IMG/VR virus record: IMGVR_UViG_3300023281_001622
Location: 1-64,000 of that record
From: a virus
DNA: 64,000 nt
Reading direction: 5' to 3' (one strand)
Part shown: positions 8,668 through 44,458 of the stretch, piece by piece
Position numbering within the stretch: the first letter of the stretch is position 1
Layout: the number at the start of each line of letters is the position of its first letter
The notes under the pieces: model-generated
What the model was told of the DNA's origin: nothing
What the model saw: only the letters and a program-made list of their open reading frames with translations
The model's database searches: none
Program-made: the position numbers and the translations under genes

Positions 8668-8673
8668 CCTGTC

Positions 8674-9267
8674 TCACTCTTTGCTTAGCCAACACGTTGC
8701 TGGGAACTTTAGATCTTCGTTTTCATCATTAGCCACTTCCTTGGGTAGATGCACTTTAGCTTTAAGCTGACAACCACACACATTGCATCCCCTCAGTTGA
8801 TCGTCGTGCTTTGTGCTGGCTCCTTTTGTTGCTTTGAGAAGCTTGGGTATGAGGCCTGAGCAGCCCATACAGCCCTTGATAGGGACATTATTGGGGCACG
8901 TGGTGCATATCTTTGCTCTTTTATCAGCAACATCTTGTTCTACTAGCTCTCCCCCGCTCGCTATGAAGTTTTGCACTGTTTTGAGGAATCTAGCCACTTC
9001 ATTTCTTCCGATATGTTTTGCTACTGGAGCCTTGTCTTCACTTGGAGCTCCTGAATCTTCGCACATTGAGGCATAACCTGGGTTGTTACATATGTCTTCT
9101 TGCACTCTGTCAAAGAACCCATGCTGTAGATCCCCCCCGTTTTGTTTGCGTATTTTAATGATGTTTCTGATTAAGCTTTGAATATTTGAGCTGCTTATTG
9201 CTTGTGAGCCAGTTTCGTACCAGATAACAGGTTTGCTGAACTTTTTTGTTTGTTTTAGTCGTTTCAT
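8674..9267 (-). CDS. Cys-rich zinc-binding-type protein, paralogue of the 35.8-kb gene
   Basis: Unrecognised family. The C-terminal half has ICTTCPNNVPIKGCMGCS, then GCNVCGCQLKAKVHLP and a final CW, so eight or more cysteines in C-x2-C, C-x2-C and C-x2-C-x-C spacing, a probable two-metal zinc or Fe-S module. The gene at 35811-36392 shares this module almost residue for residue, plus a QNGGDLQ-like segment in the N-terminal part. This gene is alone on the minus strand between plus-strand operons and converges with the sulfotransferase (6-bp gap). Function unknown. Confidence 0.7.
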   Translation of the reverse strand: MKRLKQTKKFSKPVIWYETGSQAISSSNIQSLIRNIIKIRKQNGGDLQHGFFDRVQEDICNNPGYASMCEDSGAPSEDKAPVAKHIGRNEVARFLKTVQNFIASGGELVEQDVADKRAKICTTCPNNVPIKGCMGCSGLIPKLLKATKGASTKHDDQLRGCNVCGCQLKAKVHLPKEVANDENEDLKFPATCWLSKE

Positions 9268-20700: not shown

Positions 20701-23700
20701 TGCTCGTCTAAGTAGAGCTGAGTCTTCATTAGCTGGTAGGTTACGTGACGACTACGCTGAAGGCAAAGCCATTGAAGTTGGCTTAGAACAATACGAGACA
20801 CGGGTGTTGCAGGAGCGCAGCTACAATCGCAGAGCGTTTAAGAATAACCAGCAGTCTAAAGAGATGGCTGTGCAGAGCTCACTGTATAAATCCCCTAGTG
20901 ATTTCAATTTACAATTACAGTCCACTGTCGATCGTATTTTGCAACAAAGCAACAAGCTCGTTGATGGGGACGTGAATAACCGTTATGCTGAGGAGGAAAG
21001 CGTGCCTTTGCCACAAAACGTGGTGAACATAAATGACGACGCAAGCACTTCAGGGTCTGTAGTGCCACAGGTGACTGGATCAAATACTGGTAATGCTGTT
21101 CCTTCACACAGTGCTGTTCCGTCTGTGTCTGGAGTGGAGCAATCCCCACAGGCTGAGATCGAGGCTGAGGAATACACGCAGAGGGTGAAGAAGCGTCTCT
21201 ACAATACAAATGGTAGATACAAAAAGCTTATGGATGAGTCTCCCAATCACCCACAAGCTGTTGAGGTGAATGGTCTTATTTCTACGTTGGCTGATATAGC
21301 TACCAATAAGTCATTTAGGATGGAGGTGCGCAATCAGGCTAACTCCACTTTATCCTCTTTGATAGGAGGCAAGTGGTCGCAGTTTTCTAGTAATGCCAAT
21401 TACCTCAGGAGCTTATCACAAGCGCCAGCTATTATAGATCAGGTTGTGGATGGTCTTAATTTGAAACACAAATCAATTAAAAATAATCCTATATTCCGAC
21501 ATCAACAAGCAGGGATAGCAGACTTGTTTAGTAAAACCAATCAAGCTTTCAAGAGAGGCTTTATGATGATGGGTGAGCAAGACTTCGGTGTGCATGGCAA
21601 TGCTGGACGTATGCCATACAAGGTGAAACAGACCGATCTTACAGACAGGTTCACCAAAAGCTCTAACCGAGCAGGTGCTTTGTTTATGACACAGGCTTAC
21701 GTAGGGACTTTGATAACCAACGTGTCCAAAGGTGGGGCTAAGCAACAGAGAAAACAGGTGTTTCGCAACATGTCTGCTCTTATGGAGGGTGCTATAATTA
21801 ATATAAATAATGCCAAGTTTTTAGACAGGGAAACATTACAGCTGTCGGAGTATGCGCAAGATATTATAAACAAGGCTTTGTCATGGTTTGAGGCTAATGC
21901 AAAAGCCACACCACAGCAATTGCATGATTATTTAATGTCCACGCTGAAGGGCGAAAAAGCGGAGATAGCTAAAGGTGTTATTAAAGAAGCTGTAGAGTTT
22001 TTCCAAGCTAACCAAGCAGGCACTGAAATCAGAGCGGCTTTTCATGGTAAGGAAGTTGGAGCGTATGAACGATACCTGCCATACCGAGGGTTCGATTTGA
22101 ATAAAACTGCAGATCTAGGTTTGGATGGTGTTAATGCCGAGCAGTATGTTGATGTCAGTAAGTCTTTTGAGCGTTCACGTTTTGAGTTGAATGATGCTGA
22201 ACAAACTAGAGGTTTGGACTTCAATGCTTTGCGAGCAATTTTGTCAGGAACAAATGCCCAGCTTTACCATGCTTATACACATGATGCCCTTACAAAGGCT
22301 AGGTATGACTTTGGTGGTCTCGGAGTGCATTCAGGTATCAACTCCGCTATTCGCGCACAAGCAATGGCAGACAAGACTCTTAGTAGAGAGCAACAAAACG
22401 CATTGATACAGATGAGTGCCACCATGGCACAGGAAGTGGAGCGACAGCGTTTTAACGATTCCAGCCATAACCCACACGCAGGCAAAGTGCTTAATATTGC
22501 TAATAGCGCAGGGTCTGCTGGTTATGCAATTACGCTTTCAAGTTTACAGCAGGCCTTCTTACAAACTGTCCCAGGATATCTGGCTTATGTGATTAACCAC
22601 CCTATAAAAGGGGCAAAGCTCACAAAGAACCTGATTAAAATGGCATTTTCATTCACACAGGGACAGTCTAATCGTTTGGTTGGGTCTAGTTTTGATTCTT
22701 ACTTTGATGATGTCAGTGGTTTTATTAAGCAGATTGCGCCTGAGATTTATGCTCGTGGTGTTGATGGTATTGACGAATTGAAGCACGGAGCGAGTAAGTT
22801 GAACATGAATGAGATTCATTCTTTGACTGATGCCACTCTTGCTGCGGGAACACTCCCCTTCAAAGCAATGAAGACTTTGATGGATTTAGTGTTGCACGCC
22901 ACTACAGGAGCGCCTGATGCGTTTTTAGTGAGAGCTATTTATGCTACAGAGTTTGAAGCTCGCACTGGAAGGACTATTGGTTCCGACACATTTGACAACA
23001 TTACTGCTACAGATATAGAAGCCGCTATCATGTCAGATGTAATAGCATTGGATATTATGGCTCAGTCTGATTCTGGTAAAAAAGGTGACTTTTTCCAGCC
23101 TGTTCAGCGAGCGGATAAGGCTGGGGCAGCTCTTGAAGTGTTACGCAAATCCGCGGGGGTTTACGCTAACCATCTGCTCAGTAAATCTGCTATGCTGCCA
23201 GCTGCTTTTTCCATGTTGAGATCTAAGGATATGAAGTTGCAGGGTGCACGTATTATCTCTGATTGGACATTGCAAATTGTCTTGTTTAACGCACTGAAGA
23301 TAAGGAGTATTGCTTATCTTACTGGTATTGTTTTGACAGGCAAACCTAATGATGAAGATGAATGGGATGATCTCAATGCTAAGTTGGCATCGGGTGAGGG
23401 TCTTACGACGGATGAACAGAAGAGACACGCTTCATTGAAGGTTGAATTTGATGCCTATGATCAGGCTGTGCTGGAGAAACAAAATTCTGTTTTGGAGGCG
23501 TGGCATTCGGTTCCTGGCACTGGGAACAAGTCAAAACTATGGACAGGAGATGATTTCATGTATTCGGTGGGAATAAAATCTGCTGTTGAAATGACTGGTA
23601 TGCTCACTCCAGTAATGGCGATACCAGAAATTAATGGCTTGGTGTTGGATGGAGTGAAAGGGCTTACAGCTCGGGCAACTGGTATTGACTATGCAGGTCG

Positions 23701-24724
23701 TGGTTCGAAACGAGTTACTGATGATTACACTAGATTCACTGACAAGATGGGTGCTCCTGGTAAGTTTGTCAGTAATCTGATCGTCTCAGGTTCTCATTAC
23801 GCTATGGCTCAATCCGATTATGAGATGAGTTATGATGATGTGTTATTGGGCTTGTATGCTTTTGGTGGTCTTAGGGAGTCTAGGGCGGCAGTTCAAGATC
23901 GAGTGATAGATAAAAACAATTCATACTACCATGTTAAGAAACATAGATCTGCTCCTGGATTGTTTGAGCATCGTCCACAAGCATTGCGTTTTCATAAACT
24001 GATGGATAGACCTACTGGATTGAATGATTTTTCTCTGGTTCACCATCCTGCTTCTCGTGTCGACATGAACATGTTTGAAGGCATGAAAATTGAGGAAGTT
24101 GATTTGTTGAATCGCCCATATAACGATGGTGATTCTATGCAGATGTCCACTGGGTTTTTGAAGAGCACGAATTACCGCTTAGCTATGATTGACACCTTGG
24201 AAACGAGTGGTAAATCGAAGGTTATGCTCGACAGGGTGTATGGTCAGGCACGTGCTACAGGGATAGAGCCTACGAACATTATTCCTACTGGTAAGAAACA
24301 AAGTTACATCACTCAGCACGCGCATGTCACTGCTGACAGGGTGTTTATTGTTCATGACAACAAGGTGGGCTTTGAGCGTGACAGAAAGAGCACTGAGCGA
24401 GTGGATGCTATCATGTTGGTTGAGAAGGATAACGTCTTATACGATCATGGGTTGAGCATGGCTTACAATGGCGATGCTAGTATCACCTACTACGGCATCA
24501 GCCGTTTACCGAAGCAGGTTCAGAAAGAATATAGGGAACGCTACAAGCGAGCTGATGAGGTGCAGAAGAACGGCAGTTTGGGCACGATCAATTCAGCGAG
24601 ATCGAAAAAGAACCCGAGAACACAATCACAGCAATCACAGCAATCTAAGGTTAAATCACCGAGTGTGAGGAGTGATCCACGGGGTGGTCGTGATTTGCGG
24701 CTACTAAGGCGTCTGGGTCGATAG
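11759..24724 (+). CDS. Giant virion-associated (ejection or polyvalent-type) protein, 4,321 aa
   Basis: One uninterrupted 13-kb frame. An N-terminal third with mixed helix includes a small-residue hydrophobic stretch near residue 425 (FGSTIGIVGGAGGGLIARYG) and LAEGAEEGVVELG near residue 700, a glycine-acidic element common in giant phage ejection proteins. A Thr/Pro-rich linker with low-complexity acidic repeats lies around residues 880-1320 (AEQEREQES occurs twice). Degenerate metalloprotease-like His segments follow (VDEETRHVVLF near 1410; GLTEETTHSLDNL near 2615), then long helices and a Lys/Arg-rich C-terminus. No RNA polymerase DxDxD or T-x-x-G-R motif was found. It probably enters the cell with the DNA and may form the transenvelope channel; enzymatic parts remain unproven. 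Confidence 0.6.
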   Translation: MLEEDNEQDDDLDLEVEQPDPLTPLREKKLTFEDIATRPEFQSADLDTRLGYIDNLAKHNKSLFEGQDAEEDNLYIDAQTQLQQRLVSSADAMKNAPEWSKEHHKMSYDTLVEFYDSDKTQEDFDKFEYQQAEVNQNLRMGEYSQYLKPLKSGADSVEMEVGGEVASLTDFSDAKSRVENGEFVYLATDDYISNTEDGYIDPDMPANIGRAYDAENDVWNEDVTLNNVKRMSADEEVKWAEDIVNAISGIEDVETLQSKIVEMGATRSQITKRVGMGLLSLNTGEYLLNSLYDDSAMSSEYGSEDDFNEFLSRSPEASEKYKQAVTRYNSRNGENSFYVKPLQWLGNTAVDILGDDVDSAELAAFGNLQQQYAQDWVSRNKDKAGVTRDDIKAVYGEEGNIKKDLGVTGWQELKETWRGAIQNAFGSTIGIVGGAGGGLIARYGDETSALADKMLRLNTLSAKDWWSGLKQNFKGATFEEHKKHESKVDKTFFEWQSHYDNKPRHMNAEQQAAWEAETTVLVDRLAEESMARATAYFGDEAGNVDDYNILKTPDLLAEASAYASNANPKSLERMQSILRVNPTTRGYRNERDDFALSLGTDGMNKLAQGYFGGHTAGWQELGVEVASMATGYAGAKMILKARKATRFATLAQTAPKEAVQKMLKQDALMLTKKGKFIKAASRAKYPAALIPASLAEGAEEGVVELGNPDITWDSFKHAVKQGMMGGAGLGVPVTAIAAHQTIKNEQANRDFVLGEKLGELVVEERDAIIGKLIESDANLTAEALYDAEDARQEIRSNTISVDDLEFTQSERAARFEDARGNYQEAKKASDAAPQDEALKQEAAAAFTYAVTAKQMYEESTQALIDAGKIDLQSKEGAVNPGDTKSSPKATQARSSSLPATSLPVAEQKGTGGKGTGSSKSNPTVDNLSDSAETRLENEQDESAWQEAKSKYNITFVEGGRKQTAQAFMKAAQQIQRDLNSKDPSVVEAARNEARVLGAKQRARAKYARKTGGDAVAGIIAEEADKFEALASGSTTSPAQTQDTTPPTPTPPPTVTAEERAAEDARIDQEAGEATAETDAPEVQRPGSRLKVTKKKAVKQEPTTTPQVGETRTVYKPDGTPVEVSVTAVSDSGAYRGDTQSGENILASGVDHFEQNPTTEDRAIVSSDISTTKKFQGVKMSELSDADLATADNVLTERIAKRPNGKQAADFASRADLTAIKAEVARRASATSQDTVGIAEPETSTQEEPAFVNLLLNAEQEREQESSGVASVSAEQEREQESNDSSESDSVDVLDTQHNSLSDAVKIATDVLDAPQNEEQTGVSFKAMVQSMAPGLDLSNIDVQFTDGDTTLGIVPYAYADGRQADKYTIKVSRKWRERLAKHVGVDDYSKATPAQKRLVALWVARAVDEETRHVVLFKNTTPEQRAEIAKDILADKKAVEVLGLYFKREGSLEQQENEDDANFHNRIVAEFINIVQQRAVYGLSNSEFMNMVAGLSDSVRKFVSSILQQLKAYLTGRQDVEYSPVVQDHINKLNKAIDVVMRDKSAQVQNVLPTEEFVPAKFDYLPQRGVEQEQDLELDYLRSVNDSLLRPVAGADLDTIDGAFGVNAQGNLFIRLSAQVLKQVQARLADVEAMKALQLKRAFPSLATVVANFNSRKVFVNAVSIIVDYTKSASVKADVIYKRYTNAVHSYRSAYDKWQALHEDKVAEAAPLKAAYEKSKSEGKEDTDLLDEWLRVVDDPAVDQARRGVERLHTELLLAENAMPKSFRRAMSTVMQVAGLAKSAPSVEYLKQRGLALGASVEARLERQALRERALQAVKPMIRFFENLNLTPFLGNSIRNHAPTKALMRFNDGNLDIAELGFLMSRLARQEVFVTITPRMVADMIGVKNRIIRMQKEGGKYDTKNDVILKRIDAVLDHKIVKSMDQSEIDRHYASDVFASDNFGTSVFFLRKDDTLRKDGKISYQLSPQHLGEFEAEAFNQKRAADVRYTMGANYSGRIHRAHKLGNISLTYKQAVERGDPAAPLTIGLEGTSRKSEGAPALLQAIADTLLVDEMGVPNDNKADANKVAIPFPGYIKKGAKNPNIQLEWTKAIGKFFRLISAQNLTDEQKSLHPVSQYADAILELAIQHYKNPSIYNYNNLMFRVMNLSDLVVEMKKQVVNQQQSIGEYRLDFRMLENIERQVQKANVSNINPLQLEQLLDTNTSVDAATAVIYKEGESSELFTNKDDSNKQTELNEQARVHGLDYKSTEKEAAQKRSLMLAVLFDLDIRKAKDWAAGFNSTRALDAHLFEKLDDAVVMYNSTTTSTERIQLAELLGAVTMTEGRNADFYTALRGMSEERQLQALRTALELDKEQLNSGGWSKSSVASLIEHSQSEQAIVGLKGKGSYGKVVMTRLLDYIQRYNLDEVFITSFINNGKEHRRVVGGVTTLEHLMEQTGRKRAVVNNIIGIMKGVRRARADVNQLTQDITIQEAKIKELTDKGITEKELDDAANLQVIGSYIMNLPPGKVDTPTFRKLFGRVGALDSTESTTQEFLGSLLSEKYGDVTVVVYDASGLNKKDVGYETNHLLLNEAGEVKAILMEGVDGHFSTGAEKIVSQLTVHALQAGLTEETTHSLDNLKLALDQYFAGDFIEVQTQAEVRALMEMQTKVTTLDESIFDDYKQRSHHWQVRQLESINADLAKVMGWGKATGDMYTHFSEMSNVDFIMATLLNDRMRHYVGHIAAGNTTFNATSSAISEESIANANTYLEVGKFDAFSADNSAIEQDMLSNVGEELTDEESANLGAGASADTQFGISPGTTYLSTYYKDDSAVSVFPQIVGFAFDMIAASDAVAATPSIDYKGQRDAQSDSIPSAHSVTDFFDYTFKEKQIKKSKQTARERIWFGIAEFNKEDRWVSINHTNYATPDSGLVNSTELRMYRDAKRAALEVYDAFKAKIDDLRKTQESIAKALADYDVSDTPFFIVDPTDMMHAHLKRDYAAVTARLSRAESSLAGRLRDDYAEGKAIEVGLEQYETRVLQERSYNRRAFKNNQQSKEMAVQSSLYKSPSDFNLQLQSTVDRILQQSNKLVDGDVNNRYAEEESVPLPQNVVNINDDASTSGSVVPQVTGSNTGNAVPSHSAVPSVSGVEQSPQAEIEAEEYTQRVKKRLYNTNGRYKKLMDESPNHPQAVEVNGLISTLADIATNKSFRMEVRNQANSTLSSLIGGKWSQFSSNANYLRSLSQAPAIIDQVVDGLNLKHKSIKNNPIFRHQQAGIADLFSKTNQAFKRGFMMMGEQDFGVHGNAGRMPYKVKQTDLTDRFTKSSNRAGALFMTQAYVGTLITNVSKGGAKQQRKQVFRNMSALMEGAIININNAKFLDRETLQLSEYAQDIINKALSWFEANAKATPQQLHDYLMSTLKGEKAEIAKGVIKEAVEFFQANQAGTEIRAAFHGKEVGAYERYLPYRGFDLNKTADLGLDGVNAEQYVDVSKSFERSRFELNDAEQTRGLDFNALRAILSGTNAQLYHAYTHDALTKARYDFGGLGVHSGINSAIRAQAMADKTLSREQQNALIQMSATMAQEVERQRFNDSSHNPHAGKVLNIANSAGSAGYAITLSSLQQAFLQTVPGYLAYVINHPIKGAKLTKNLIKMAFSFTQGQSNRLVGSSFDSYFDDVSGFIKQIAPEIYARGVDGIDELKHGASKLNMNEIHSLTDATLAAGTLPFKAMKTLMDLVLHATTGAPDAFLVRAIYATEFEARTGRTIGSDTFDNITATDIEAAIMSDVIALDIMAQSDSGKKGDFFQPVQRADKAGAALEVLRKSAGVYANHLLSKSAMLPAAFSMLRSKDMKLQGARIISDWTLQIVLFNALKIRSIAYLTGIVLTGKPNDEDEWDDLNAKLASGEGLTTDEQKRHASLKVEFDAYDQAVLEKQNSVLEAWHSVPGTGNKSKLWTGDDFMYSVGIKSAVEMTGMLTPVMAIPEINGLVLDGVKGLTARATGIDYAGRGSKRVTDDYTRFTDKMGAPGKFVSNLIVSGSHYAMAQSDYEMSYDDVLLGLYAFGGLRESRAAVQDRVIDKNNSYYHVKKHRSAPGLFEHRPQALRFHKLMDRPTGLNDFSLVHHPASRVDMNMFEGMKIEEVDLLNRPYNDGDSMQMSTGFLKSTNYRLAMIDTLETSGKSKVMLDRVYGQARATGIEPTNIIPTGKKQSYITQHAHVTADRVFIVHDNKVGFERDRKSTERVDAIMLVEKDNVLYDHGLSMAYNGDASITYYGISRLPKQVQKEYRERYKRADEVQKNGSLGTINSARSKKNPRTQSQQSQQSKVKSPSVRSDPRGGRDLRLLRRLGR

Positions 24725-35779: not shown

Positions 35780-35808
35780 TTGACTTATGTTATCTATTAA
35801 GATATATC
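35780..35808 (+). promoter_or_regulatory. Sigma70-like promoter for the plus-strand Cys-rich gene
   Basis: TTGACT (35780-35785), a 17-bp spacer and TATATC (35803-35808) lie just before ATGs at 35811 and 35817, so the transcript would be nearly leaderless. The 44-bp divergent gap also serves the minus-strand operon, where a TATACT box on the opposite strand (35773-35778) may be its -10. Confidence 0.55.
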
Positions 35809-35810
35809 TA

Positions 35811-36392
35811 ATGTATATGTGTGGTAGATATAATACAAACAAAAACTTCCCTCGCCCATACACGTGGAATGAACAGGGAGAGTCACTTACAGTAAAAACT
35901 CTTGGTGAGTTATTAAGATTTGTTTCTGCTGTCAGAATACAGCGTGGAGGTGATTTACAGCCTGGATGGCAAGATCGCATTTGTAATCAGATATGTGAAG
36001 ATCCCATCATGAAATTCAACTGTTCTCAAACAGGTGGACATGATGTCAGGGAGATACAAGCATCTGATGTAAAACGCTTTTTCACTACAGTTGCCAAATG
36101 GGCATCTGATGGTGGCACTATGGTGGATTCTGGGGAAGCAGAACGAAGGGCTAGTATATGTGCTGCCTGTCCACAGAACGTGCCTATACGGGGGTGTATG
36201 GGCTGTTCTACTATACTACCAAAACTGTTGAAGGTTATTGGTGGTGCGACTACTAGCAAAGACGCACTCTTAAAGGGCTGTAAAATTTGTGGTTGTGAAC
36301 TTAAAGCTAAGGTTCACTTGCCATCTGACGTGATGGTGGATGGAGAATCTAATTTTCCAGAGCATTGCTGGATTAGGACGGAACAGGAGTAA
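35811..36392 (+). CDS. Cys-rich zinc-binding-type protein, paralogue of the 8.7-kb gene
   Basis: Shares with the 8674-9267 protein the module ICAACPQNVPIRGCMGCS, a PKLLKVIGGA segment, GCKICGCELKAKVHLP and a final C-W, plus GGDLQPGWQDRICNQICEDP in the N-terminal half. At least nine conserved Cys suggest two metal sites. Start at 35811 chosen from the promoter position; 35787 and 35817 are alternatives. It is alone on the plus strand and converges on the primase-helicase (6-bp gap), so both paralogues sit as single genes against the local direction, like independently expressed morons. Function unknown. Confidence 0.75.
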   Translation: MYMCGRYNTNKNFPRPYTWNEQGESLTVKTLGELLRFVSAVRIQRGGDLQPGWQDRICNQICEDPIMKFNCSQTGGHDVREIQASDVKRFFTTVAKWASDGGTMVDSGEAERRASICAACPQNVPIRGCMGCSTILPKLLKVIGGATTSKDALLKGCKICGCELKAKVHLPSDVMVDGESNFPEHCWIRTEQE

Positions 36393-36398
36393 TTATTC

Positions 36399-38228
36399 TC
36401 AAGAAAGATCAGCAAAAGGTTCAGGTGCTAATGGCTTGATGGTGAATCGTTGTGAGTTTTTATCAAACCACAGATTTTCCATAGGGTATTCTCCTGTTGC
36501 ACGTTGTTTGCGACAGTAGATTTTGCCATCTGGTATGCTACGATCGAAATTACGAATGTCTAGAGCGTCACGTCCATCTTTAGTCATTTCAGCTATGTCT
36601 TCGTGTTTTTTGGCATTGCGCCACACTGTGACAATGTTTTCTGGTATGTCACCCCACTCACTTGCACCGCGAATGTCTGCCACTGTTTGAGGACTAGCTG
36701 AGTCTTCTCTGTTGCCGCTTTTACGTGGGTGAGCGATGACGAACAGGTGTATGGGGTAGTCTTTGGTGAACTTACGGAACAAGTGTGCAATATTGGCTTG
36801 TTCAGCGTTATTGTCACGATTGCTATCTAGGGACATCACGTTATCCACTACAAACCTATTGATGCCTTTGCGTTTGTGAGCGTATGTGAATGTTTCGATT
36901 AGCTTTATGGGGTCTGTGCGGTCTACTGAGTTGTAGATTGTGATGAATGGAGCTAATGCATTGAATGCTTTGTTATATTCATCTCGATCATGAGCGATGT
37001 TTTTGTTGGCACTGAATTGTTTGAGCATACTTGCTAATGTCATTGTGCTCATTTGTTCGAAGCTGGCAATGGTGGTTTGTATTTGCCTGGATGCATCGAA
37101 TGCTATTTGATTTGAAATAAACTGGCTTTTACCTTGGCCTGTGAGACCAAATATAAGTGTCATTTCATGCGGGCGAATACGCAAGTCGAAGTTGGGCACG
37201 AAGTATTCATCACCTGTGTTTTCGAATCCGTTAAGTAGTAGCTCATAGGTTGATTCTACTAAGCTTGTAGCTTGTATTAGCTCGCCTGATTCTGGTGTTG
37301 CTGCTGTTTCGAAGGCTTTGATTAAAGATTCATTTTCGCCTTTGTCGTTTTGTAATACATCACTTGCATCTTTTTTGTTAAGGTTGATGATCTTACATTT
37401 GTGAATGCCTAGACGCTTGATGACTTCATTGCCCGCTGTTTGACCTTCGTCATCCATGTCAAATGACAGGTATATGGTGTGAAATTGTTGTAGGTATTCC
37501 CAGTCTTCATTTATCCATTGATGGTTTTTGGCTCCAGAGGGGATGCTCACTGCTGGTAAACCAGCTTCATAGTATGACATAGCATCCCAGCGTCCTTCTG
37601 TAATAATCAGGGAGCCTTTGGTTTCGTTTGGTGACACTGTCTTTTTGCCAAATAGATTATGTCTGCAATTTTTAGATGACCAAATTTTCTTTTCTCTTGT
37701 GTCACTGTATTCAGCTTTGGTGATGTTATCATTGGCATCCATGCTAAGAAAGCATGTGACGTTTGGATCGCGTTTTAGGGATTTGACTTCATAGGCTGAT
37801 AATGTGTCTTTGGTGATGTAACGTTTTTCGATAGCGTATTTAATCACTTCTTTACTAAGTCTAGCGTAAGACTCGTCATCTGCTAGCCTACGTGGCTTTT
37901 GTAGGTTTTGTGGCTCATACTTGCGTTTGGTGCAACTCGTGTAATTGCATCCAAGCCATTCTATTGCACCACCGTAGTCTAGGTTTTTGACACTTTCTAT
38001 AAGGCTAATCAGGTCGCCTTTTTCGCCAGTAGCGTGGTCATAGTATGCTCCGAATTTGCTTGGATCTAATGATATAGACATGCTGCTACCTTTTTCACCA
38101 TCAACACTACCTAGCCTAGCTTCGGCTCCTTTGTATTTAGCTTCTGGGTAGATGTCTGATATGATGGCTTTGATGTTTTGTGAGCATGATTGTTTAACTT
38201 CACTAGCGTCGTAATATTCTTTGAGCAT
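36399..38228 (-). CDS. DNA primase-helicase (Twinkle/T7 gp4-like)
   Basis: 609 residues. Residues 35-95 form a primase N-terminal domain (GAYYDHATGEKGDLISLI), but the zinc-binding Cys set of bacterial primases is missing. A TOPRIM centre follows: E211 in LIITEGRWDAM, then D257 and D259 in LSFDMDDEG. The C-terminal RecA-type helicase has Walker A GLTGQGKS (361-368), Walker B RFVVDN (D462) and LFVIAHPRK. This is the T7 gp4/Twinkle layout. It would unwind the fork and may prime. No phage DNA polymerase was recognised in this window, so a host polymerase may join it. Confidence 0.85.
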   Translation of the reverse strand: MLKEYYDASEVKQSCSQNIKAIISDIYPEAKYKGAEARLGSVDGEKGSSMSISLDPSKFGAYYDHATGEKGDLISLIESVKNLDYGGAIEWLGCNYTSCTKRKYEPQNLQKPRRLADDESYARLSKEVIKYAIEKRYITKDTLSAYEVKSLKRDPNVTCFLSMDANDNITKAEYSDTREKKIWSSKNCRHNLFGKKTVSPNETKGSLIITEGRWDAMSYYEAGLPAVSIPSGAKNHQWINEDWEYLQQFHTIYLSFDMDDEGQTAGNEVIKRLGIHKCKIINLNKKDASDVLQNDKGENESLIKAFETAATPESGELIQATSLVESTYELLLNGFENTGDEYFVPNFDLRIRPHEMTLIFGLTGQGKSQFISNQIAFDASRQIQTTIASFEQMSTMTLASMLKQFSANKNIAHDRDEYNKAFNALAPFITIYNSVDRTDPIKLIETFTYAHKRKGINRFVVDNVMSLDSNRDNNAEQANIAHLFRKFTKDYPIHLFVIAHPRKSGNREDSASPQTVADIRGASEWGDIPENIVTVWRNAKKHEDIAEMTKDGRDALDIRNFDRSIPDGKIYCRKQRATGEYPMENLWFDKNSQRFTIKPLAPEPFADLS

Positions 38229-38323
38229 GATTGTTTATTGGAGCGTGGACAGGCTTCTATTTATCCCTGTCAGGTGAATTATGTAACTACGTGTAACAAG
38301 ACGCGATGTATTACCTCTCAGAG

Positions 38324-39040
38324 TTATTTTACGTTTTTGTAAACTTCCAGATTAGGTTCTATCTGAAGGACGATTTTTTGTTTGCTTATTAAATCGTCTG
38401 TAAGGGCGTTCTCTTTTACTTTTGTTACTATTTCGTTGAAAGACACGCATATGTATAGCGGCTCTTTCTCTTTCTTGGCGTCTTCGATGGCATTAAGCAC
38501 ATCCATTGCGTCGAGATCTTCAAGCAGATCCACTTCGTCTTTTTTGACGAGGGATGTTAGTGCTCTTGTCTCTTTCACTGTGAGTTTGTGCTCTAGAGCT
38601 TTTTGGAGAATCAAAGATTTTTGTTCATCACTTAAACCTTTGGCGTAATGAACTTCTTTGTGGTGAGTGAAGGATAATCCCTCTACTCGCCTGTCTCCCC
38701 ACCCTAGAAACACAGACTCACTTGTCATCAGCGTGTGATAAGATTTGTCAGTAGCTTCGATTACAAATGATGGGTCGTAGTTATCACCGAAATGATCACG
38801 ACACACCAAGACGATGTTACCTAGCAACCAACATGATTGATCTTCAATATAGTTGGCTGCGTCTTTTAGGTTTACGATTAGATTAGTGACACTATAGCAT
38901 TCTTCTAGTGTGGGTGGATTATGTTGATCAATTACCCATTTTTCATCGTCGTATACGAAGTTTGATGCCAGCTCTACTGCCACTGTGTCGATAGCAGTGG
39001 AGCTGTTTAGTGCTGTGATTGGGTTTATAGCGTTACTCAT
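38324..39040 (-). CDS. ParB/KorB-related DNA-binding-type protein
   Basis: Residues ~60-170 carry a pattern common to ParB-related mobile-element proteins: SCWLLGNIVLVCRDHFGDNY, a SFVIEATDKSYHTLMTSES helix pair, then LSFTHHKEVHYAKGLSDEQK and LTVKETRALTSLVKK, where LTVKETRAL is ParB-like. No N-terminal ParB nuclease motif (GxRR) is seen. It is coupled to the upstream gene (TAATG) and lies three genes downstream of the ThiF/JAMM genes; ParB-related genes accompany ThiF in PRTRC cassettes, which supports reading this as part of that cassette. Confidence 0.55.
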   Translation of the reverse strand: MSNAINPITALNSSTAIDTVAVELASNFVYDDEKWVIDQHNPPTLEECYSVTNLIVNLKDAANYIEDQSCWLLGNIVLVCRDHFGDNYDPSFVIEATDKSYHTLMTSESVFLGWGDRRVEGLSFTHHKEVHYAKGLSDEQKSLILQKALEHKLTVKETRALTSLVKKDEVDLLEDLDAMDVLNAIEDAKKEKEPLYICVSFNEIVTKVKENALTDDLISKQKIVLQIEPNLEVYKNVK

Positions 39041-39588
39041 TATGGGAGCAGTTTTTCACCAAACCAGGCTTTAGGGACAAATTCTAAGAAGCCAATTGCT
39101 GCTTGGTGTGCCTGTTCTGGTGTTACGCCTTCTACCTGTTTCATTTTATTTAGGGTGTCTACGTAGTATTTGCCATAGTAGCTTTGTAGTTGGTCTACGC
39201 TGTATGGTGGGGACGGTGGTTCAATTGCTTGAACTGTATGTTGTGTTGTTACTGTATTTTCCATGGTTTCTTTTTTTGGTTGGATGATTGCAAATTTGTC
39301 ACATTGAATGCTGAAGTCTTTTTTGTATATATTGACTGATACGCCTTTGAGTCCGTCAGGTGTTATTGCTGATTGGACACTGTAGGGGGTGTTATCTTTG
39401 AGATTGTTTGTTTGGCTCTCGTGAAATATTCGCAATGTTGAATTTGTGAATCCACTTGTGCAATTTATGTTGTATATACTTACGAAGTTTTCTTTGAGCG
39501 GGTATGTTCCTTTTTTGTTGATTACGTTTACGTTTACTGAAGGGATTGATGATTTGTTTGGTAGGGTGAGTGCTTCGGCTAGATTCAT
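39040..39588 (-). CDS. Hypothetical protein (182 aa) in the Ubl cassette
   Basis: N-terminal beta-rich part (GTYPLKENFVSIYNINCTSG and onward), a Pro-rich linker (AIEPPSPPYSV), then a helical end (DTLNKMKQVEGVTPEQAHQA). Its start lies inside the preceding gene and overlaps it by 197 bp; an alternative start at 39264 gives only the helical 74 residues. The N-terminal sequence looks like real protein, so the long version is preferred. Not recognised. Confidence 0.5.
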   Translation of the reverse strand: MNLAEALTLPNKSSIPSVNVNVINKKGTYPLKENFVSIYNINCTSGFTNSTLRIFHESQTNNLKDNTPYSVQSAITPDGLKGVSVNIYKKDFSIQCDKFAIIQPKKETMENTVTTQHTVQAIEPPSPPYSVDQLQSYYGKYYVDTLNKMKQVEGVTPEQAHQAAIGFLEFVPKAWFGEKLLP

Positions 39589-39802
39589 GTTTGTTGTGAT
39601 TATTGATAATCGTTAAGATATCTATTGCTAATACTTCTATATATTCTTTTACTAATGATTCATCTTGTTTTTCGAAGAATTCACATTTGTATTTCATGAT
39701 GAAGTTGTTGAGTTTTTCATCACTCCATTTATAGTGATCGTCAGGAAGAATACGGCACAAGTAGTGTCCACTTGCTCTGATCAGGGCTTGATTATAAGTC
39801 AT
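39392..39802 (-). CDS. Hypothetical protein overlapping the next gene (136 aa)
   Basis: Starts at 39802, coupled to the JAMM gene stop (ATGA). Residues 1-70 are well-formed and helical (KLNNFIMKYKCEFFEKQDES). The remainder (KRKRNQQKRNIPAQRKLRKY and onward) is very basic and lies over the start of the next gene in another frame, so it looks like a shadow continuation. Either the C-terminal part is truly translated as a second frame, or a frameshift or error obscures a stop near 39590. Confidence 0.4.
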   Translation of the reverse strand: MTYNQALIRASGHYLCRILPDDHYKWSDEKLNNFIMKYKCEFFEKQDESLVKEYIEVLAIDILTIINNHNKHESSRSTHPTKQIINPFSKRKRNQQKRNIPAQRKLRKYIQHKLHKWIHKFNIANISREPNKQSQR

Positions 39803-41013
39803 AAGGATGTGTTTTTTGTTGCGTTTAGCAGGTATAACTCGTTTATGAGGTATTTGTTATCAACAGCATTTACGTCTTTCACTTCATGAACTATACTTAA
39901 TAGATCATCCATTATATCTATGTAGCTTAGTGTTGTATTGCTAGGTTGATACACTTCATTTTCAGAGTAGTATTTGTCAGTTTGTGAGATAGCGACGCTG
40001 ATTATATCAGATATGTCATTATATGTGTAATATTGATCGTAACTTACTGTGTCATTGGCAATTAATACATCATAAATATCAATATATCTGCACTCTTCAT
40101 AAAGAAATTGGCAAATAAAGAAGATGTCTTCGGCTTTATAGTTGTCTGTGAACGGGTTAGCCCAGTCAATATTAGTGAGGTCTAGTTCTTTATCTTCAGT
40201 AACCGTATCCTCGATGGTATCCGTATTGATCATAGGTGAGGCTATTTTCCCCTGGGATGGTGTTTTTTTTTCATATCCGTATGCTAAGTTTTTATGCTGG
40301 TTCCATTTTGGGTAGACTTTCTTTTTGGTGCATCTGTCTAACCATTCCTCAGGGAAACTGCTGTTTTTAGTAGTAGTGTTTTGCATCAGGATTGTCATCG
40401 GTGACGCGATGCAGAAATCAGGCACTTCATCTGGGATGTTTAATTCTTGCATGATCAGTTCTGCGTCAACTAATACAAACTCTTGGTGTGCTGGGCTAAC
40501 TTTCACTCCGTTTTCGAACTTTGCATTTTCGAACACGTTGAATCTACAGTGTAGTGAACGTTGTGCTTTGTTGCAGTCGCCAATAGTTAGGTGCCATCCG
40601 TTTTTTGAACGTTCATCATCAGCATCATCACCACTTTGTGAAGCGGCTGCTTTGTTATGACTGTGGATGGTGCAGTGAGTTTTCTTGAGTGCCTCAGTGA
40701 CACCAAGTAATTCTACTAATGCGATGTTATCTTCTGATTGCTGATCAAACTTTACGTGTAGTGGGCCATCTGCTTCTTGATGCCAGATAATTGGAACCCA
40801 CTCTCCGTCTAGTATGGTGAGACTGCACACACCTTCTACATCATTTTTAACACTCATGTGTGTTAGCCATGAAGATATCTGGCGATACAAATCGTAATGT
40901 AATCCTGGAAGATGGTTTTGTAGGTGCGTGGCTTTTAGTTTGCGTATAATTTCTTCTTCGTATGTTACTGACGCGCAGTCATATACGATATCAACGGTGT
41001 TTGTCTTCTTCAT
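39799..41013 (-). CDS. JAMM/JAB metallopeptidase (PRTRC A-like) with long C-terminal extension
   Basis: The JAMM signature is complete: E60 (DVEGVCSL) and H117-S-H119-x7-S127-x2-D130 (HSHNKAAASQSGDD), the zinc-binding motif of deubiquitinase-like peptidases. The acidic DDADDE following it and GWHLTIGD match PRTRC system protein A. The ~200-residue C-terminus is acidic and unrecognised. The ATG at 41013 (MKKTNTVDIV) gives 404 residues; a start at 41082 would overlap the upstream gene by 92 bp. Likely removes or matures the Ubl encoded at 43290-43520. Next to the E1 and E2-like genes, this forms a ubiquitin-like cassette. Confidence 0.75.
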   Translation of the reverse strand: MKKTNTVDIVYDCASVTYEEEIIRKLKATHLQNHLPGLHYDLYRQISSWLTHMSVKNDVEGVCSLTILDGEWVPIIWHQEADGPLHVKFDQQSEDNIALVELLGVTEALKKTHCTIHSHNKAAASQSGDDADDERSKNGWHLTIGDCNKAQRSLHCRFNVFENAKFENGVKVSPAHQEFVLVDAELIMQELNIPDEVPDFCIASPMTILMQNTTTKNSSFPEEWLDRCTKKKVYPKWNQHKNLAYGYEKKTPSQGKIASPMINTDTIEDTVTEDKELDLTNIDWANPFTDNYKAEDIFFICQFLYEECRYIDIYDVLIANDTVSYDQYYTYNDISDIISVAISQTDKYYSENEVYQPSNTTLSYIDIMDDLLSIVHEVKDVNAVDNKYLINELYLLNATKNTSL

Positions 41014-41755
41014 CTTGTGTTTCTTTGGCTTTTGCAATTTCTTCTCTGTATAGTTTTGATTGGTATTCTTCGCCCTTACCACTTTTATAGTGTTCAGCTG
41101 CGGTGAATATGATAAGTCGACAGATGTCTTTGAATGTCATGTCGTCGTTTGGCACTCTGGCGGTGAAGAAGTCTTCTGTGTTTTCTCTGATTGTGTAATC
41201 AACACCTGCTACACCTAGAGGATCTCTTCGTATTGTGCGGATACAATCGTCTTGCTGTATTGCTGACATGGTTCTGTTGTATGGTTTCATCTTATTTTCA
41301 GATACATGTAAGCATGAACCGATTGCAATTTCCTGTGCTGGTAGGTCTAGGATTTCTGCCACTATGTTGGCATCACTTCTACTTTCACTTTTAACTTCAC
41401 TCCAGCTGAGGTCTGATTTGATGATGCTACTTGAATTCACATATCTCGTATCAGTGTTGTAGTAGAGGATGTTTAAAGATCCTGAGACACTATATTCATG
41501 TGCAAATATTGTGATTAGTGATTCAAGGAAGTCAGCGTGGAACCAATCATCGAAAGCGTCCTGTGTTTCCATATCTGTCCATTCACCATATGATAAATGT
41601 TTGGAGAAATCTTCTTCAATTGTATTACACACTTGATCCAATAGGTTGCGACGTGAAGGTCTGCCCGTATCTGCTGCCAGAATGAATTTGTGCCAGTGCA
41701 AATATCGCACGGAGCAATTATCGCGTATGTGTTTTATAAATTCTTCAGTTTTCAT
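40991..41755 (-). CDS. Unrecognised protein between ThiF and JAMM genes (254 aa)
   Basis: Alpha/beta with YLHWHKFILAADTGRPSRRN near the N-terminus and a Lys/Glu-rich C-terminus (KLYREEIAKAKETQDEEDKH). PRTRC cassettes carry further proteins here (E and F), which could be its relatives, but I cannot align it by eye. It overlaps the JAMM gene by 23 bp and starts 4 bp after the ThiF gene, so it is clearly part of the same transcription unit. Confidence 0.5.
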   Translation of the reverse strand: MKTEEFIKHIRDNCSVRYLHWHKFILAADTGRPSRRNLLDQVCNTIEEDFSKHLSYGEWTDMETQDAFDDWFHADFLESLITIFAHEYSVSGSLNILYYNTDTRYVNSSSIIKSDLSWSEVKSESRSDANIVAEILDLPAQEIAIGSCLHVSENKMKPYNRTMSAIQQDDCIRTIRRDPLGVAGVDYTIRENTEDFFTARVPNDDMTFKDICRLIIFTAAEHYKSGKGEEYQSKLYREEIAKAKETQDEEDKHR

Positions 41756-41759
41756 AATG

Positions 41760-42407
41760 TTATGGTGTAATGTCTTTGATTTGTTTCCAGATTGGCCATG
41801 GTGTGCTGACTATTTCTGCAAGGTAGTTGCTTGGGTTGTTGCAAGTGCGTAGTGATTCCCAAATGTGTAGTCCGTGAGATGCTGCACAATAGTTGGCGGC
41901 TGGCATCTGGACGTTTTCCTCGATGATTTCCACACCTGCACATGTCTCCTGGCGTCCTTCAGGTAGCTCGTTGAGTTTCCATCGAATGTATGGGTCTTTA
42001 TTGGTGTATGCATATTCAGGAAGATATAGCCACGCCATAGGTTCCCACTCTTCGTTGCCACATATGATAAGCGGAACATCATGCTTGTTGGCTAGGTTGG
42101 CTGCTTGTTGTCGTGCGTCATTGTTATCTACACAGCAGAAGATAAGATCTGTATCTAAGTCTTCGTTACCACGAACCATTTTAGGGACAGCTGTTACGGT
42201 TTTGTTGCCTCCGTTGAATATGTTAGCGAGTGTAGTGGCTTTGTTGTCGCCAATGCTATCTGCACTGTAGATTTGACGTGTAATGTTTTTTTCTTCGTAG
42301 TCGTCACCATCGTAGATGGTTACGTCCACTACAGGGACAATAGCAGGTAATACCATGGATCCTGTTCCACCTGCTCCGATGAGTGTTACTTTATTGATGT
42401 TGATCAT
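41760..42407 (-). CDS. ThiF/E1-like adenylyltransferase (PRTRC ThiF-like)
   Basis: Activates ubiquitin-like proteins by adenylating their C-terminus. Motifs seen: the ATP loop G11-A-G-G-T-G16 (IGAGGTGSMV), an acidic Mg site at D33/D35 (YDGDDYEEKNITRQ, with R44-Q45), K56 (GDNKA) and D94 in CCVDNNDAR. C156 in GRQETCAGVE is the likely catalytic Cys. Downstream WESLRTCNNPSNYLAE and PIW resemble the PRTRC ThiF C-terminus. 215 residues, the short single-domain form. Its neighbours are a Ubl, an E2-like and a JAMM gene. Confidence 0.8.
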   Translation of the reverse strand: MININKVTLIGAGGTGSMVLPAIVPVVDVTIYDGDDYEEKNITRQIYSADSIGDNKATTLANIFNGGNKTVTAVPKMVRGNEDLDTDLIFCCVDNNDARQQAANLANKHDVPLIICGNEEWEPMAWLYLPEYAYTNKDPYIRWKLNELPEGRQETCAGVEIIEENVQMPAANYCAASHGLHIWESLRTCNNPSNYLAEIVSTPWPIWKQIKDITP

Positions 42408-42591
42408 AATTGCTGATGCCTGGGGCTAATGTGTTTAATGTGTTTGCCAATGCTTTGCGTTGATCGATGTGATTGGTGAACATCTTGATGAGTTGTTTAG
42501 ATTTCACGGTATTAAGACTAGAATTGGCAATGAGTTCGATGATTGTGTTGAGCTCAATTTTTGTGTTATGATGTGTATTTAATCTGCTCAT
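42391..42591 (-). CDS. Hypothetical small protein between E2-like and E1 genes (66 aa)
   Basis: Helical, rich in Asn/Thr/Leu (IELIANSSLNTVKSKQLIKM). Overlaps its upstream neighbour by 26 bp and the ThiF gene by 17 bp. Could be an adaptor for the cassette; not recognised. Confidence 0.5.
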   Translation of the reverse strand: MSRLNTHHNTKIELNTIIELIANSSLNTVKSKQLIKMFTNHIDQRKALANTLNTLAPGISNYDQHQ

Positions 42592-43225
42592 GATTTAGTT
42601 TGTTTCTTTCATACTTCTGGATGCACACTACGCCGTTTTTATTTGCGTATAGATTAGCTGCACATTGTCGTTGGTCTTGCATATCATTCTCGTGATTAGT
42701 TAGCAGGTGGTTGTTACCTGGTGCTGATTCATATGTTGCAATGATGTTTTGTGGCGGGGTGGCAATAGGGAAGGTTTGCTCAAAGCACATCCTGCCGTCG
42801 TCGAATACGTTGGTTGTGAGTGCCGCTCTATCGGTGTCATTTGAGAAGATATACATGTGGTTGTGTGCTGAGGAATTATCACCTGTGTGGATGATCATGG
42901 TTACATCTTCGATACCAATTGATTGTTGTTCCACCTCTGTGTTTGTTTCGTTGTAGTCAGGGTCTACAAGGTGAATAGTGTCACTTGAGCCTTTATAGAT
43001 GACGGGCATTTTTGAATATAGAAGGTCACACTTTATGACGTGTGTGATGTATTTGCCGTTAGCGAATATTTTATGCCAAAAATGTCTGTTGTCGTAGGTG
43101 AATGGCATGAAGTCTTGCATCACGCATGTGCCGTGAAGCACTTCTTGTGGGAGTGTTGATTTATACTGCACCTCATATAGTTTGGTGATGCCGTTTTCCA
43201 CTCGTGTTAGGTATGTTGGTTCCAT
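42566..43225 (-). CDS. E2-like protein (PRTRC B-like)
   Basis: 219 residues, beta-rich. Residues ~105-160 match the PRTRC protein B region: MIIHTGDNSSAHNHMYIFSN, a TDRAALTTNVFDDGRMCFEQ segment and TFPIATPP. The pattern N-V-x-x-D-G-x-x-C-x-x is the part predicted to be an E2 fold with catalytic Cys (C147 here). If so it accepts the activated Ubl from the ThiF protein. The 5' gap (43226-43289) contains an 11-bp hairpin, so its expression relative to the Ubl may be tuned. Called from these similarities only. Confidence 0.6.
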   Translation of the reverse strand: MEPTYLTRVENGITKLYEVQYKSTLPQEVLHGTCVMQDFMPFTYDNRHFWHKIFANGKYITHVIKCDLLYSKMPVIYKGSSDTIHLVDPDYNETNTEVEQQSIGIEDVTMIIHTGDNSSAHNHMYIFSNDTDRAALTTNVFDDGRMCFEQTFPIATPPQNIIATYESAPGNNHLLTNHENDMQDQRQCAANLYANKNGVVCIQKYERNKLNHEQIKYTS

Positions 43226-43246
43226 AATATTTTAGATATAAGATAG

Positions 43247-43283
43247 AGAGATGCCCCAATGCTTGCTACAAAGGGGCATCTCT
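43247..43283 (-). promoter_or_regulatory. Hairpin between Ubl and E2-like genes (11-bp stem)
   Basis: AGAGATGCCCC and GGGGCATCTCT form a perfect 11-bp stem with a 15-nt loop. No U-run follows on the minus strand, so it is more likely a processing or mRNA-stability element that would leave the upstream Ubl in excess of the enzymes. Confidence 0.6.
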
Positions 43284-43289
43284 AGTGTG

Positions 43290-43520
43290 TTAGGACTTAG
43301 ATGAAGCTGTGTTCATATATCCAACTTTGATGTCAGGTGTGATGGGTGTATCACAGCTTGCAGCTACTCCATTAACTGTTGGTGTGCCTGTTGCACTAAA
43401 GTTGTAATCCTCACGGAATTCAGTAGTGATAAGCTCACCAATGTTGGATGCTGTTGTCTCGTGTAGAACTGGTGTTGATACACCATTATCTACCAAGATG
43501 AATTTGCTTGTTCCAGGCAT
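43290..43520 (-). CDS. Ubiquitin-like beta-grasp protein (76 aa)
   Basis: SKFILVDNGVSTPVLHETTA starts a beta strand pair, followed by a helix (SNIGELITTEFREDYN), a strand with PTVNGVAASCDTPITPDIKV and a final strand. The x-V-N-G-x-x-A turn is typical of beta-grasp Ubl and MoaD-like proteins. It ends TASSKS, not Gly-Gly. The start at 43520 overlaps the upstream stop (TAATG); a longer frame would start at 43544. It heads the E2, E1 and JAMM genes. Identity is by fold pattern and context; the fold needs confirmation. Confidence 0.55.
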   Translation of the reverse strand: MPGTSKFILVDNGVSTPVLHETTASNIGELITTEFREDYNFSATGTPTVNGVAASCDTPITPDIKVGYMNTASSKS

Positions 43521-43813
43521 TAGACGTTTGGTTTGTTGTAGCAAAGAGCGTAGGTGTTGCTGGCAGCTTCTAGTTCAGCTGTTTTTGCATCTACGTTTTT
43601 TGCGTGGTTAATAATGTTCTGGAAGCTAGGCTTCTCAGAGTTTTTGAGTGCGATGATGTATGCATCACGCTCGTTTTCAGCAACTGAGACAGCGTGACGG
43701 CATTCCATCACGACTTGTCTCGCTTGTAGCTCTAAGGACTCAACTTTAAGCTGAGTGTTAGTGGCCTTATTTTCATCCTGATCATCAGACCAGTATTCTT
43801 CTATCGTTTTCAT
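43520..43813 (-). CDS. Coiled-coil protein heading the Ubl cassette (97 aa)
   Basis: Almost entirely helical with heptad-like spacing (QLKVESLELQARQVVMECRH; AKNVDAKTAELEAASNTYAL), acidic. It directly precedes the Ubl gene (TAATG). It could be a Ubl target, adaptor or unrelated; not recognised. Confidence 0.55.
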   Translation of the reverse strand: MKTIEEYWSDDQDENKATNTQLKVESLELQARQVVMECRHAVSVAENERDAYIIALKNSEKPSFQNIINHAKNVDAKTAELEAASNTYALCYNKPNV

Positions 43814-44140
43814 ATGCTATATGGTATTAGGGAGAGGGTAAGCTCAGTCGGATTTCTACCGACAATTGTGCAAGTTTATCTACTTACAGTGACTTTCGTT
43901 GACCGTGATCTTGACGATCTAGATCCACTAGCTACTCATCATGTGCATGAGCATTGAGTGGCATGCGTAGAACGTTCGTGTCGTTGGTGCTAGAAATGTG
44001 ACTGAATTTCGATAATCCGTAAGTCAACTTACACATATACGGATTCCTTCATTACAGTGATGTAATGTTGTCGTGCATATCATTCACTAGATGATGTGCT
44101 TTTTGGATATGAGCTTGGGAAATGATTACCAGTTTCTGGA
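43814..44140 (-). promoter_or_regulatory. Structured leader of the Ubl cassette
   Basis: No gene in this 327-bp gap. It holds a TCGGTA-N5-CCGA hairpin (43848-43862) shared with two other leaders; a large inverted repeat AATCCGTA...TACGGATT with TAAG/CTTA inside (around 44010-44035); an ATTACA-gtga-TGTAAT stem near 44054-44069; and GATTACCAGTT twice (44124-44134 and 44139-44149) around the stop codon of the upstream gene, operator-like. No clear -10/-35 was found on the minus strand. Confidence 0.5.
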
Positions 44141-44458
44141 TTACCAGTTACTGCGTTCCTCTTTGAGGTTTTCACGCTTTACTGTGTAGACGTTTAGGTA
44201 ACTCAGTTCATCTGCAAGTTCTTCAGCGTTGAACTTGTCACGTGACGCTTGCTTTTTGATGGCGAATTGTGCCAACACTACACGATCTGCAATTGCTTGC
44301 ATGTTGGCTGGCATGTAGTCAGTGAGGACGAGTTTGTCTCTCACTGCTTCTTGGGCATCATCGTATCCAATTTGGATATCGGCATCTGCAAACTCAGGAA
44401 CTGCGATGGACAATGCTTCTGCTACTTTTTTATCTGTTGCGAATATTACTTTACTCAT
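44141..44458 (-). CDS. Hypothetical helical protein (105 aa)
   Basis: Mostly helical, acidic (MSKVIFATDKKVAEALSIAV and onward), ends KEERSNW. It is preceded by a 5' leader with three hairpins and followed by the structured leader of the Ubl cassette. Not recognised. Confidence 0.55.
   Translation of the reverse strand: MSKVIFATDKKVAEALSIAVPEFADADIQIGYDDAQEAVRDKLVLTDYMPANMQAIADRVVLAQFAIKKQASRDKFNAEELADELSYLNVYTVKRENLKEERSNW

Follow-up and report, generated by a model that had tools for sequence, protein, structure and literature searches.

A probable phage-encoded ubiquitin-like conjugation cassette related to the class-6d/PRTRC systems

Conjugation of ubiquitin-like (Ubl) proteins in bacteria is known mainly as an anti-phage weapon, as in the cyclic oligonucleotide-based antiphage signaling systems (CBASS) and in Bil. 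The present analysis concerns a set of minus-strand genes in a virus sequence, IMG/VR record IMGVR_UViG_3300023281_001622, that resembles the plasmid systems known as ParB-related, ThiF-related cassettes (PRTRC). Positions 1-64000 of this 73,156-bp record were analyzed, and this whole stretch is called the window. The core of the plasmid PRTRC systems corresponds to what Iyer, Burroughs and Aravind (2006) termed operon type 6d, and the accessible part of that paper (PMC1779556) describes it in bacteria as a set of an E1, an E2-like protein with a conserved cysteine, a JAB peptidase with an extra N-terminal region, a small ubiquitin-like protein with a conserved C-terminal glycine, and helical proteins; phages come up in that part solely in connection with tail TAPI/TAPK genes. 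The window locus resembles type 6d in its E1, its JAB peptidase with an extra N-terminal region and its helical proteins, and it has a probable E2-like protein and a plausible ubiquitin-like protein, the latter without the C-terminal glycine. It is likely to be a phage-encoded Ubl conjugation cassette belonging to a branch of the class-6d/PRTRC systems that is divergent and specific to phages. Judged by sequence, two of the four core parts (E1 and JAMM) are certain, the E2 is probable, and the Ubl is plausible.

The genes of the cassette form one compact minus-strand unit in which neighbors overlap or are separated by very short gaps, with the E1, the JAMM and the rest of the core at 39.8-43.5 kb (Table 1). 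This arrangement had been described in a first-pass annotation made from the letters of the window, and all of its open reading frames (ORFs) were found in place. The 215-aa protein carries each of the E1 motifs named there, and a residue-by-residue check located the GxGGxG loop (G11, G13, G14, G16), D33, D35, R44-Q45, K56, D94, and the candidate cysteine C156. An alignment of the window protein and eight PRTRC-type E1s showed no variation in the glycine loop or at D33, D35, N41, R44, K56, D94, R99, and Cys156, the last aligning with the invariant PRTRC cysteine. The protein matched Pfam ThiF (3e-15), and the top match from twenty NCBIfam E1 models was PRTRC_ThiF (TIGR03736; 7.5e-14), at a score under the curated cut-off of 144.75 bits, as were all scores of window proteins against the curated PRTRC models. 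An enriched PRTRC E1 profile recovered the window E1 at 8.5e-34. In the PDB, the PRTRC E1 profile gives higher scores to the E1s of NEDD8, SUMO and ubiquitin than to ThiF and MoeB, and the CxxC zinc pair of the MoeB/ThiF sulfur-carrier type was looked for in the window E1 and was not found. By its sequence, the 215-aa protein is an E1 of the PRTRC_ThiF type with a complete active site, and this assignment is secure.

The metal site of the JAMM peptidase is likewise complete, consisting of E83, H140-S-H142, S150, and D153, which bears out the E...HxH-x7-S-x2-D pattern reported initially. The curated PRTRC-A model (TIGR03735) alone matched this protein weakly (0.051); profiles to which phage and plasmid members had been added matched it at 2.6e-8 and then at 4.6e-12, and hhalign aligned it with PRTRC-A at 2.3e-11 across 148 columns. 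These comparisons identify the 427-aa protein as a PRTRC-A-type JAMM peptidase, and here too the assignment is secure.

The 219-aa protein is read as an E2 of the Prok-E2_D/PRTRC-B type, an assignment that is very probable when the operon context is included in its basis. The motif N139-V-F-D-D-G-R-M-C147 was checked by residue, and N139 and C147 were, near-invariant positions aside, the sole residues that did not vary across 28 aligned family members. Against 6,203 ORFs, an hmmsearch with the E2 profile gave this protein an E value of 0.76, which is not significant alone; the protein was the top scorer of the 335 window ORFs, and hhalign gave an E value of 7.8e-4 that none of 200 shuffles equaled. 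An AlphaFold 2 model, built with an alignment of 27 viral and bacterial relatives, contains a beta-meander at residues 71-128 (predicted local distance difference test score, pLDDT, of about 70-80), which is followed by the N139/C147 loop and by helices. This modeled order is the one expected for an E2, at a low confidence that keeps it from being taken as proof. The E2-like protein first proposed has support from its motif and from hhalign, while the ubiquitin-conjugating fold is not proven.

The 76-aa protein is the weakest link of the cassette, and its identity as a beta-grasp modifier is considered rather likely. No library or hmmsearch match was found for it. When it was compared by hhalign with a clade-specific Ubl profile, residues 34-75 aligned on positions 39-80 of 81 with an E value of 0.013 and with the C-terminus in register, and 1 of 200 shuffles scored equally high. 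In the alignment with the clade Ubls, V-N-G is kept, the two following strands are matched by position, and a lysine is invariant. Related phages have a small gene beside the E2 or the E1 whose product ends in K-G, and one clade member passes Pfam ThiS. The PRTRC-C profile did not match the 76-aa protein, shuffles of which scored equally high, and the protein does not have the K-G end of PRTRC-C. Its AlphaFold 2 model, made from the protein alone, was uninformative (pLDDT 47), and the clade Ubl profile found no ThiS or ubiquitin match in the PDB. The hhalign result and the alignment with the clade Ubls speak for the beta-grasp-like protein originally proposed, the fold of which is not proven. 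The serine at the C-terminus, the most unusual feature here, may be tolerated, as the alanine that ends the PRTRC-C of Pelobacter suggests, or it may be processed or be a sign of lost function. Through the hairpin that separates the Ubl gene from the E2 gene, the modifier could be produced at higher levels than the enzymes. The 182-aa protein was considered as an alternative Ubl and rejected, since its match to PRTRC-C (E 0.055) was equaled by 2 of 150 shuffles. The case in which the 76-aa protein was not beta-grasp and the 219-aa protein was not E2-like, leaving an isolated ThiF and a JAMM, was not what the comparisons indicated, although neither fold is proven.

Relatives of the E1 were collected from IMG/VR by two profile-guided scans that gave 59 loci, or 56 distinct ones after three pairs proved to be the same contig. 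The E1, E2, JAMM and Ubl are all present in 17 of the 56, and most of the remaining loci have two or three of these genes or the E1 alone. A terminase match was found in 11 of 20 tested records, and three of these (L015, L048 and L053) belong to the clade of the window. In the E1 tree, the window groups with L015 and L041 in a clade made up of viral contigs only (support 98/95, and 97/99 after pruning of long rows), which lies apart from plasmid PRTRC. This clade is the set that had been chosen beforehand by its ThiS-type Ubl gene, and its members carry Ubl, E2, JAMM and E1. The N-x7-C motif and the order of Ubl followed by E2 are common to the window, L041, L038 and L015, and the L015 cassette likewise lies near a replication gene (Prim-Pol). 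Genes outside the core that are shared with the nearest relatives were looked for and none were detected. The view of the locus as a divergent phage relative of PRTRC agrees with this all-viral clade, whereas a grouping of the window with plasmid PRTRC was not rejected by the approximately unbiased test (p 0.129). The phage version first proposed is not a lone one; complete cassettes occur in many IMG/VR contigs and in cultured phages.

Other loci recovered in the scans differ in composition. In L053 and L044, the Ubl gene is immediately followed by an AAA+ ATPase gene (PF00004 with lid; 9148-10752 in L053 and 8621-10249 in L044), and the large-phage group that includes these two has three E2-like genes each besides the ATPase. 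In a separate viral group (L037, L039, L040, L042, L050, and L064-L068), an E1 and a nearby JAMM-like protein of ~180 aa were found and an E2 was undetected; other products of L037 look like TFB, a clamp loader, and an ATP-dependent DNA ligase, which suggests an archaeal virus. L060, a viral contig in which two E1 genes are present, encodes, beside an E1, a 96-aa Ub-Mut7C/ThiS-like protein that ends in EGGGK (8578-8868).

Among cultured phages, Salmonella phage Arash (OQ632216) encodes an E1 (gp246c), a JAMM (gp247c) and an E2 (gp248c), and Vibrio phage D69 (OZ195729) has E2, JAMM and E1 genes together with a three-unit Ubl protein; Vibrio phages D148 and D181 carry cassettes of the same class as D69. 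Burkholderia phage BgVeeders33, which is Mu-like, has a PRTRC cassette that is annotated almost wholly as hypothetical. These genomes resemble the window in having an E1, a JAMM and an E2-like protein, the last a probable one in the window, and the Ubls of Arash and D69 end in GTKG. They differ from it in their strong profile matches (6.6e-19 to 6.2e-23 for the E2 and 3e-51 for the JAMM), and BgVeeders33, unlike the window, clusters with plasmid PRTRC. The Arash Ubl (L080, about 107-305) has 66 residues, ends in RRTGTKG and is unannotated, gp251c being another frame of the same stretch. The label "structural protein" that the Arash E1 and E2 bear in their annotation comes from particle mass spectrometry; Gp246-Gp249 and Gp251 were detected in purified particles (PMC10585845), where the authors allow for carry-over, and the numbering of that paper is possibly shifted by one relative to GenBank. 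The D69 Ubl gene (L081, 4382-5173) encodes 263 aa with three tandem PRTRC-C-like units that end in G-T-K-G and a short tail after the last unit; by its sequence, it is a poly-ubiquitin-like precursor beside the E2, JAMM and E1 genes.

With plasmid PRTRC (for example, Pelobacter pPRO1 and Paraburkholderia PPGU19_p3), the window shares the compact operon and the additional helical genes, the types of its E1 (PRTRC_ThiF) and JAMM (PRTRC-A), probably that of its E2 (PRTRC-B), and a small gene that is Ubl-like. It differs in having no ParB and no detectable PRTRC-E or -F, in a Ubl that is ThiS-type rather than PRTRC-C-type and ends in SKS, and in a gene order of Ubl-E2-E1-254aa-JAMM instead of E-C-F-B-A-ThiF. 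The label PRTRC is not fully supported because the ParB component, which belongs to the meaning of the name, is absent here. The logic of E1, E2, JAMM and Ubl is shared with CBASS Cap2/Cap3, Bil and Bub; unlike the window, Cap2 fuses E2 and E1, and the Bil Ubl is double-domain (PMC11354881). In contrast to the lambdoid tail TAPI/TAPK genes, the cassette lies in a replication module, has an E1, and gives no Pfam NlpC match. In the literature searched, in which subscription papers and preprints were incompletely covered, phage ubiquitin-like parts are described for tail assembly only. In summary, the chemistry and the gene set are of a known kind, and the clade differs in its Ubl type, the absence of ParB, its gene order and its hosts.

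Several observations weigh against the reading of the window locus as a conjugation cassette. The similarity of the 219-aa protein to E2 is limited to a matched stretch of 19 residues, and the protein passes no curated model, including Pfam Prok-E2_D. Its AlphaFold 2 model (pLDDT 55) retrieves no E2 from the PDB, and the top match of this model in BFVD is an unnamed 241-aa viral protein at a borderline E value of 0.012. No profile finds the 76-aa protein at E < 10, and this protein ends in S-S-K-S where its relatives end in G-x-K-G, with the last glycine replaced by serine. The window E1 is a long branch in the trees, and no close relatives were found in the scans.

The short or weak matches behind the window Ubl and E2, and the existence of viral loci (L037, L039, L040, L042, L050 and others) that have an E1 with a JAMM-like protein of ~180 aa and an undetected E2, could also be explained if only the E1 and the JAMM were functionally paired and acted on a host ThiS/MoaD-like protein, with the 76-aa and 219-aa proteins as unrelated neighbors. 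We regard this as improbable: the JAMM of the window belongs to the long PRTRC-A type and not to the ~180-aa type, the window E1 clusters with viruses in which E2 and Ubl genes are present, and the N-x7-C motif and the order of Ubl then E2 match L041, L038 and L015. Another possibility is that the set was derived from a host Cap2/Cap3- or Bil-like defense and serves as a decoy or inhibitor, which would undo or divert the tagging of phage proteins by the host through an active JAMM and a conjugation-dead Ubl ending in serine. The serine C-terminus would fit this proposal, as would the use of E1/E2/JAMM chemistry by CBASS (PMC10097602 and PMC11153139) and by Bil (PMC11354881). It is nevertheless very improbable, because the PADLOC defense E1-E2 models match the window E1 weakly and locally (6.5e-9 over residues 2-68), the E1 retains a complete active site and a catalytic-type cysteine, and its closest family is PRTRC_ThiF. 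Least probable of all is a sulfur-carrier pathway, in which a ThiS-like protein would be thiocarboxylated by the E1, with processing by the JAMM, and would serve in biosynthesis or in the modification of tRNA; the ThiS-type Ubl of the clade and the JAMM-E1-ThiS operons tied to sulfur metabolism in the accessible part of PMC1779556 speak for it, and against it stand the E2-like proteins of the clade, the E1 without a CxxC zinc pair, the Ubl that ends in Ser and not in Gly-Gly, and the lack of any rhodanese, cysteine synthase, sulfur or cofactor genes noted near the cassette.

If the locus is a conjugation cassette, then the E1 would bind ATP, adenylate the C-terminus of the 76-aa Ubl, and take it over as a thioester on Cys156. 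The Ubl would then be relayed to Cys147 of the E2-like protein and joined to an amino group on a protein of the phage or the host, from which the JAMM peptidase could remove it again. An E1 thioester, relay by an E2, lysine conjugation, and removal by the JAB protein are predicted for this operon type in the accessible part of PMC1779556. The cassette probably tags proteins reversibly during infection. It is probably expressed early, as suggested by its place beside the primase-helicase and nuclease genes, which is also seen in L015. That it acts on proteins of phage DNA replication, host take-over or defense is rather doubtful. A further, tentative and rather doubtful proposal is that tailed phages contain a lineage of complete Ubl conjugation systems that serve the infection program, some of them having multiple E2 paralogues, Ubl precursors in tandem, or a neighboring AAA+ ATPase, and that the modifier ending in Ser and not in Gly would here imply an altered activation or linkage chemistry.

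Table 1. Features of the cassette and the adjoining primase-helicase gene in the window.
Feature	Position	Strand	Remarks
DNA primase-helicase	36399..38228	-	phrog_239, 2.6e-78; next gene downstream of the cassette, same strand
LmbU-like helix-turn-helix regulator, 238 aa	38324..39040	-	NF038070, 1.4e-8, under the family cut-off
182-aa protein, function unassigned	39040..39588	-	from the ORF list
136-aa ORF, reality uncertain	39392..39802	-	overlaps the next ORF by 197 nt
JAMM/JAB metallopeptidase	39799..41082	-	427 aa with the GTG start, 404 aa with the ATG start at 41013; long extra C-terminal region
254-aa protein	40991..41755	-	first PRTRC-F profile E 0.031; 2.7 after profile enrichment
E1/ThiF protein, 215 aa	41760..42407	-	adenylation residues and candidate thioester Cys156, without CxxC zinc pair
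Small helical protein, 66 aa	42391..42591	-	overlaps the E2 and E1 genes; phmmer 0.033 to a small helical protein of L022
Probable E2-like protein, 219 aa (PRTRC-B/Prok-E2_D type)	42566..43225	-	N139, active-site candidate C147
Strong RNA hairpin between the Ubl and E2 genes	43247..43283	-	-24.8 kcal/mol, z -5.8; without U tract
Putative ThiS-type Ubl, 76 aa	43290..43520	-	84 aa from upstream TTG; ends ...NTASSKS
Helical/coiled protein, 97 aa	43520..43813	-	stop overlaps the Ubl start (TAATG); PRTRC-E position, no detectable similarity

The remaining genes of the unit are less readily assigned. PRTRC-E gave no match to the 97-aa protein. The 66-aa protein is possibly the counterpart of a small helical gene in other phage cassettes, which is treated as a lead only, and the 254-aa protein is a possible, unproven counterpart of the fast-evolving alpha-helical PRTRC-F protein. 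The overlap of the 136-aa and 182-aa ORFs probably means that one start or one ORF is wrong, or that there is a frameshift. The 238-aa protein had been put forward as ParB-like, and this identity was rejected: the protein has no ParB domain, hhalign to the PRTRC ParB gave an E value of 0.24, and ParB_N was absent across the whole 73-kb record. By sequence, the protein resembles LmbU-family regulators, its sole informative match, and is not a ParB. No Shine-Dalgarno-like sequence precedes any cassette gene or the primase at 36399-44458 (minus strand), and the leaders are A/T-rich and resemble those of hosts with weak use of such sequences.

The cassette lies upstream of the primase-helicase gene on the same strand, as had been noted at first, and it is co-directional with the primase-helicase and nuclease genes. 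Among the other phage-type genes of the window, PHROG matches identify an integrase (phrog_1 at 9.8e-32), a DNA methyltransferase (phrog_757 at 2.2e-57) and an exonuclease (phrog_2139 at 6.3e-29). The presumed terminase, portal and capsid proteins matched no Pfam or PHROG family, and the presumed terminase had zero tblastn matches in 50,697 GenBank phage records and none in the PDB; on these grounds the virus is very isolated. Single-protein scans of IMG/VR found no close relatives of the window E1 or the primase. The window also encodes two paralogous Cys-rich proteins on opposite strands (8674-9267, minus, and 35787-36392, plus) with the motif C-x2-C-P-x-N-V-P-I-x-G-C-M-G-C, and a single ORF of 4,321 aa (11759-24724, plus) whose product may be a giant phage protein, either injected or structural. 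Both ends of the 73-kb record carry very long Ser/Gly-rich repeat genes (window 117-2576; L002 11379-13049), and the assembly may have broken inside such a repeat.

The same gene set is found in dozens of other phage sequences, where it is mostly unrecognized, and in cultured phages it is annotated as hypothetical or "structural". If the reading as a conjugation cassette is true, then the presence of complete cassettes in phages would imply protein tagging by the viruses themselves, for which no description was found in the literature searched. The cassette may also provide an entry to PRTRC, for which that literature yielded no function, and it links a metagenomic orphan to cultured phages (Arash, D69/D148/D181 and BgVeeders33) in which the function is testable.

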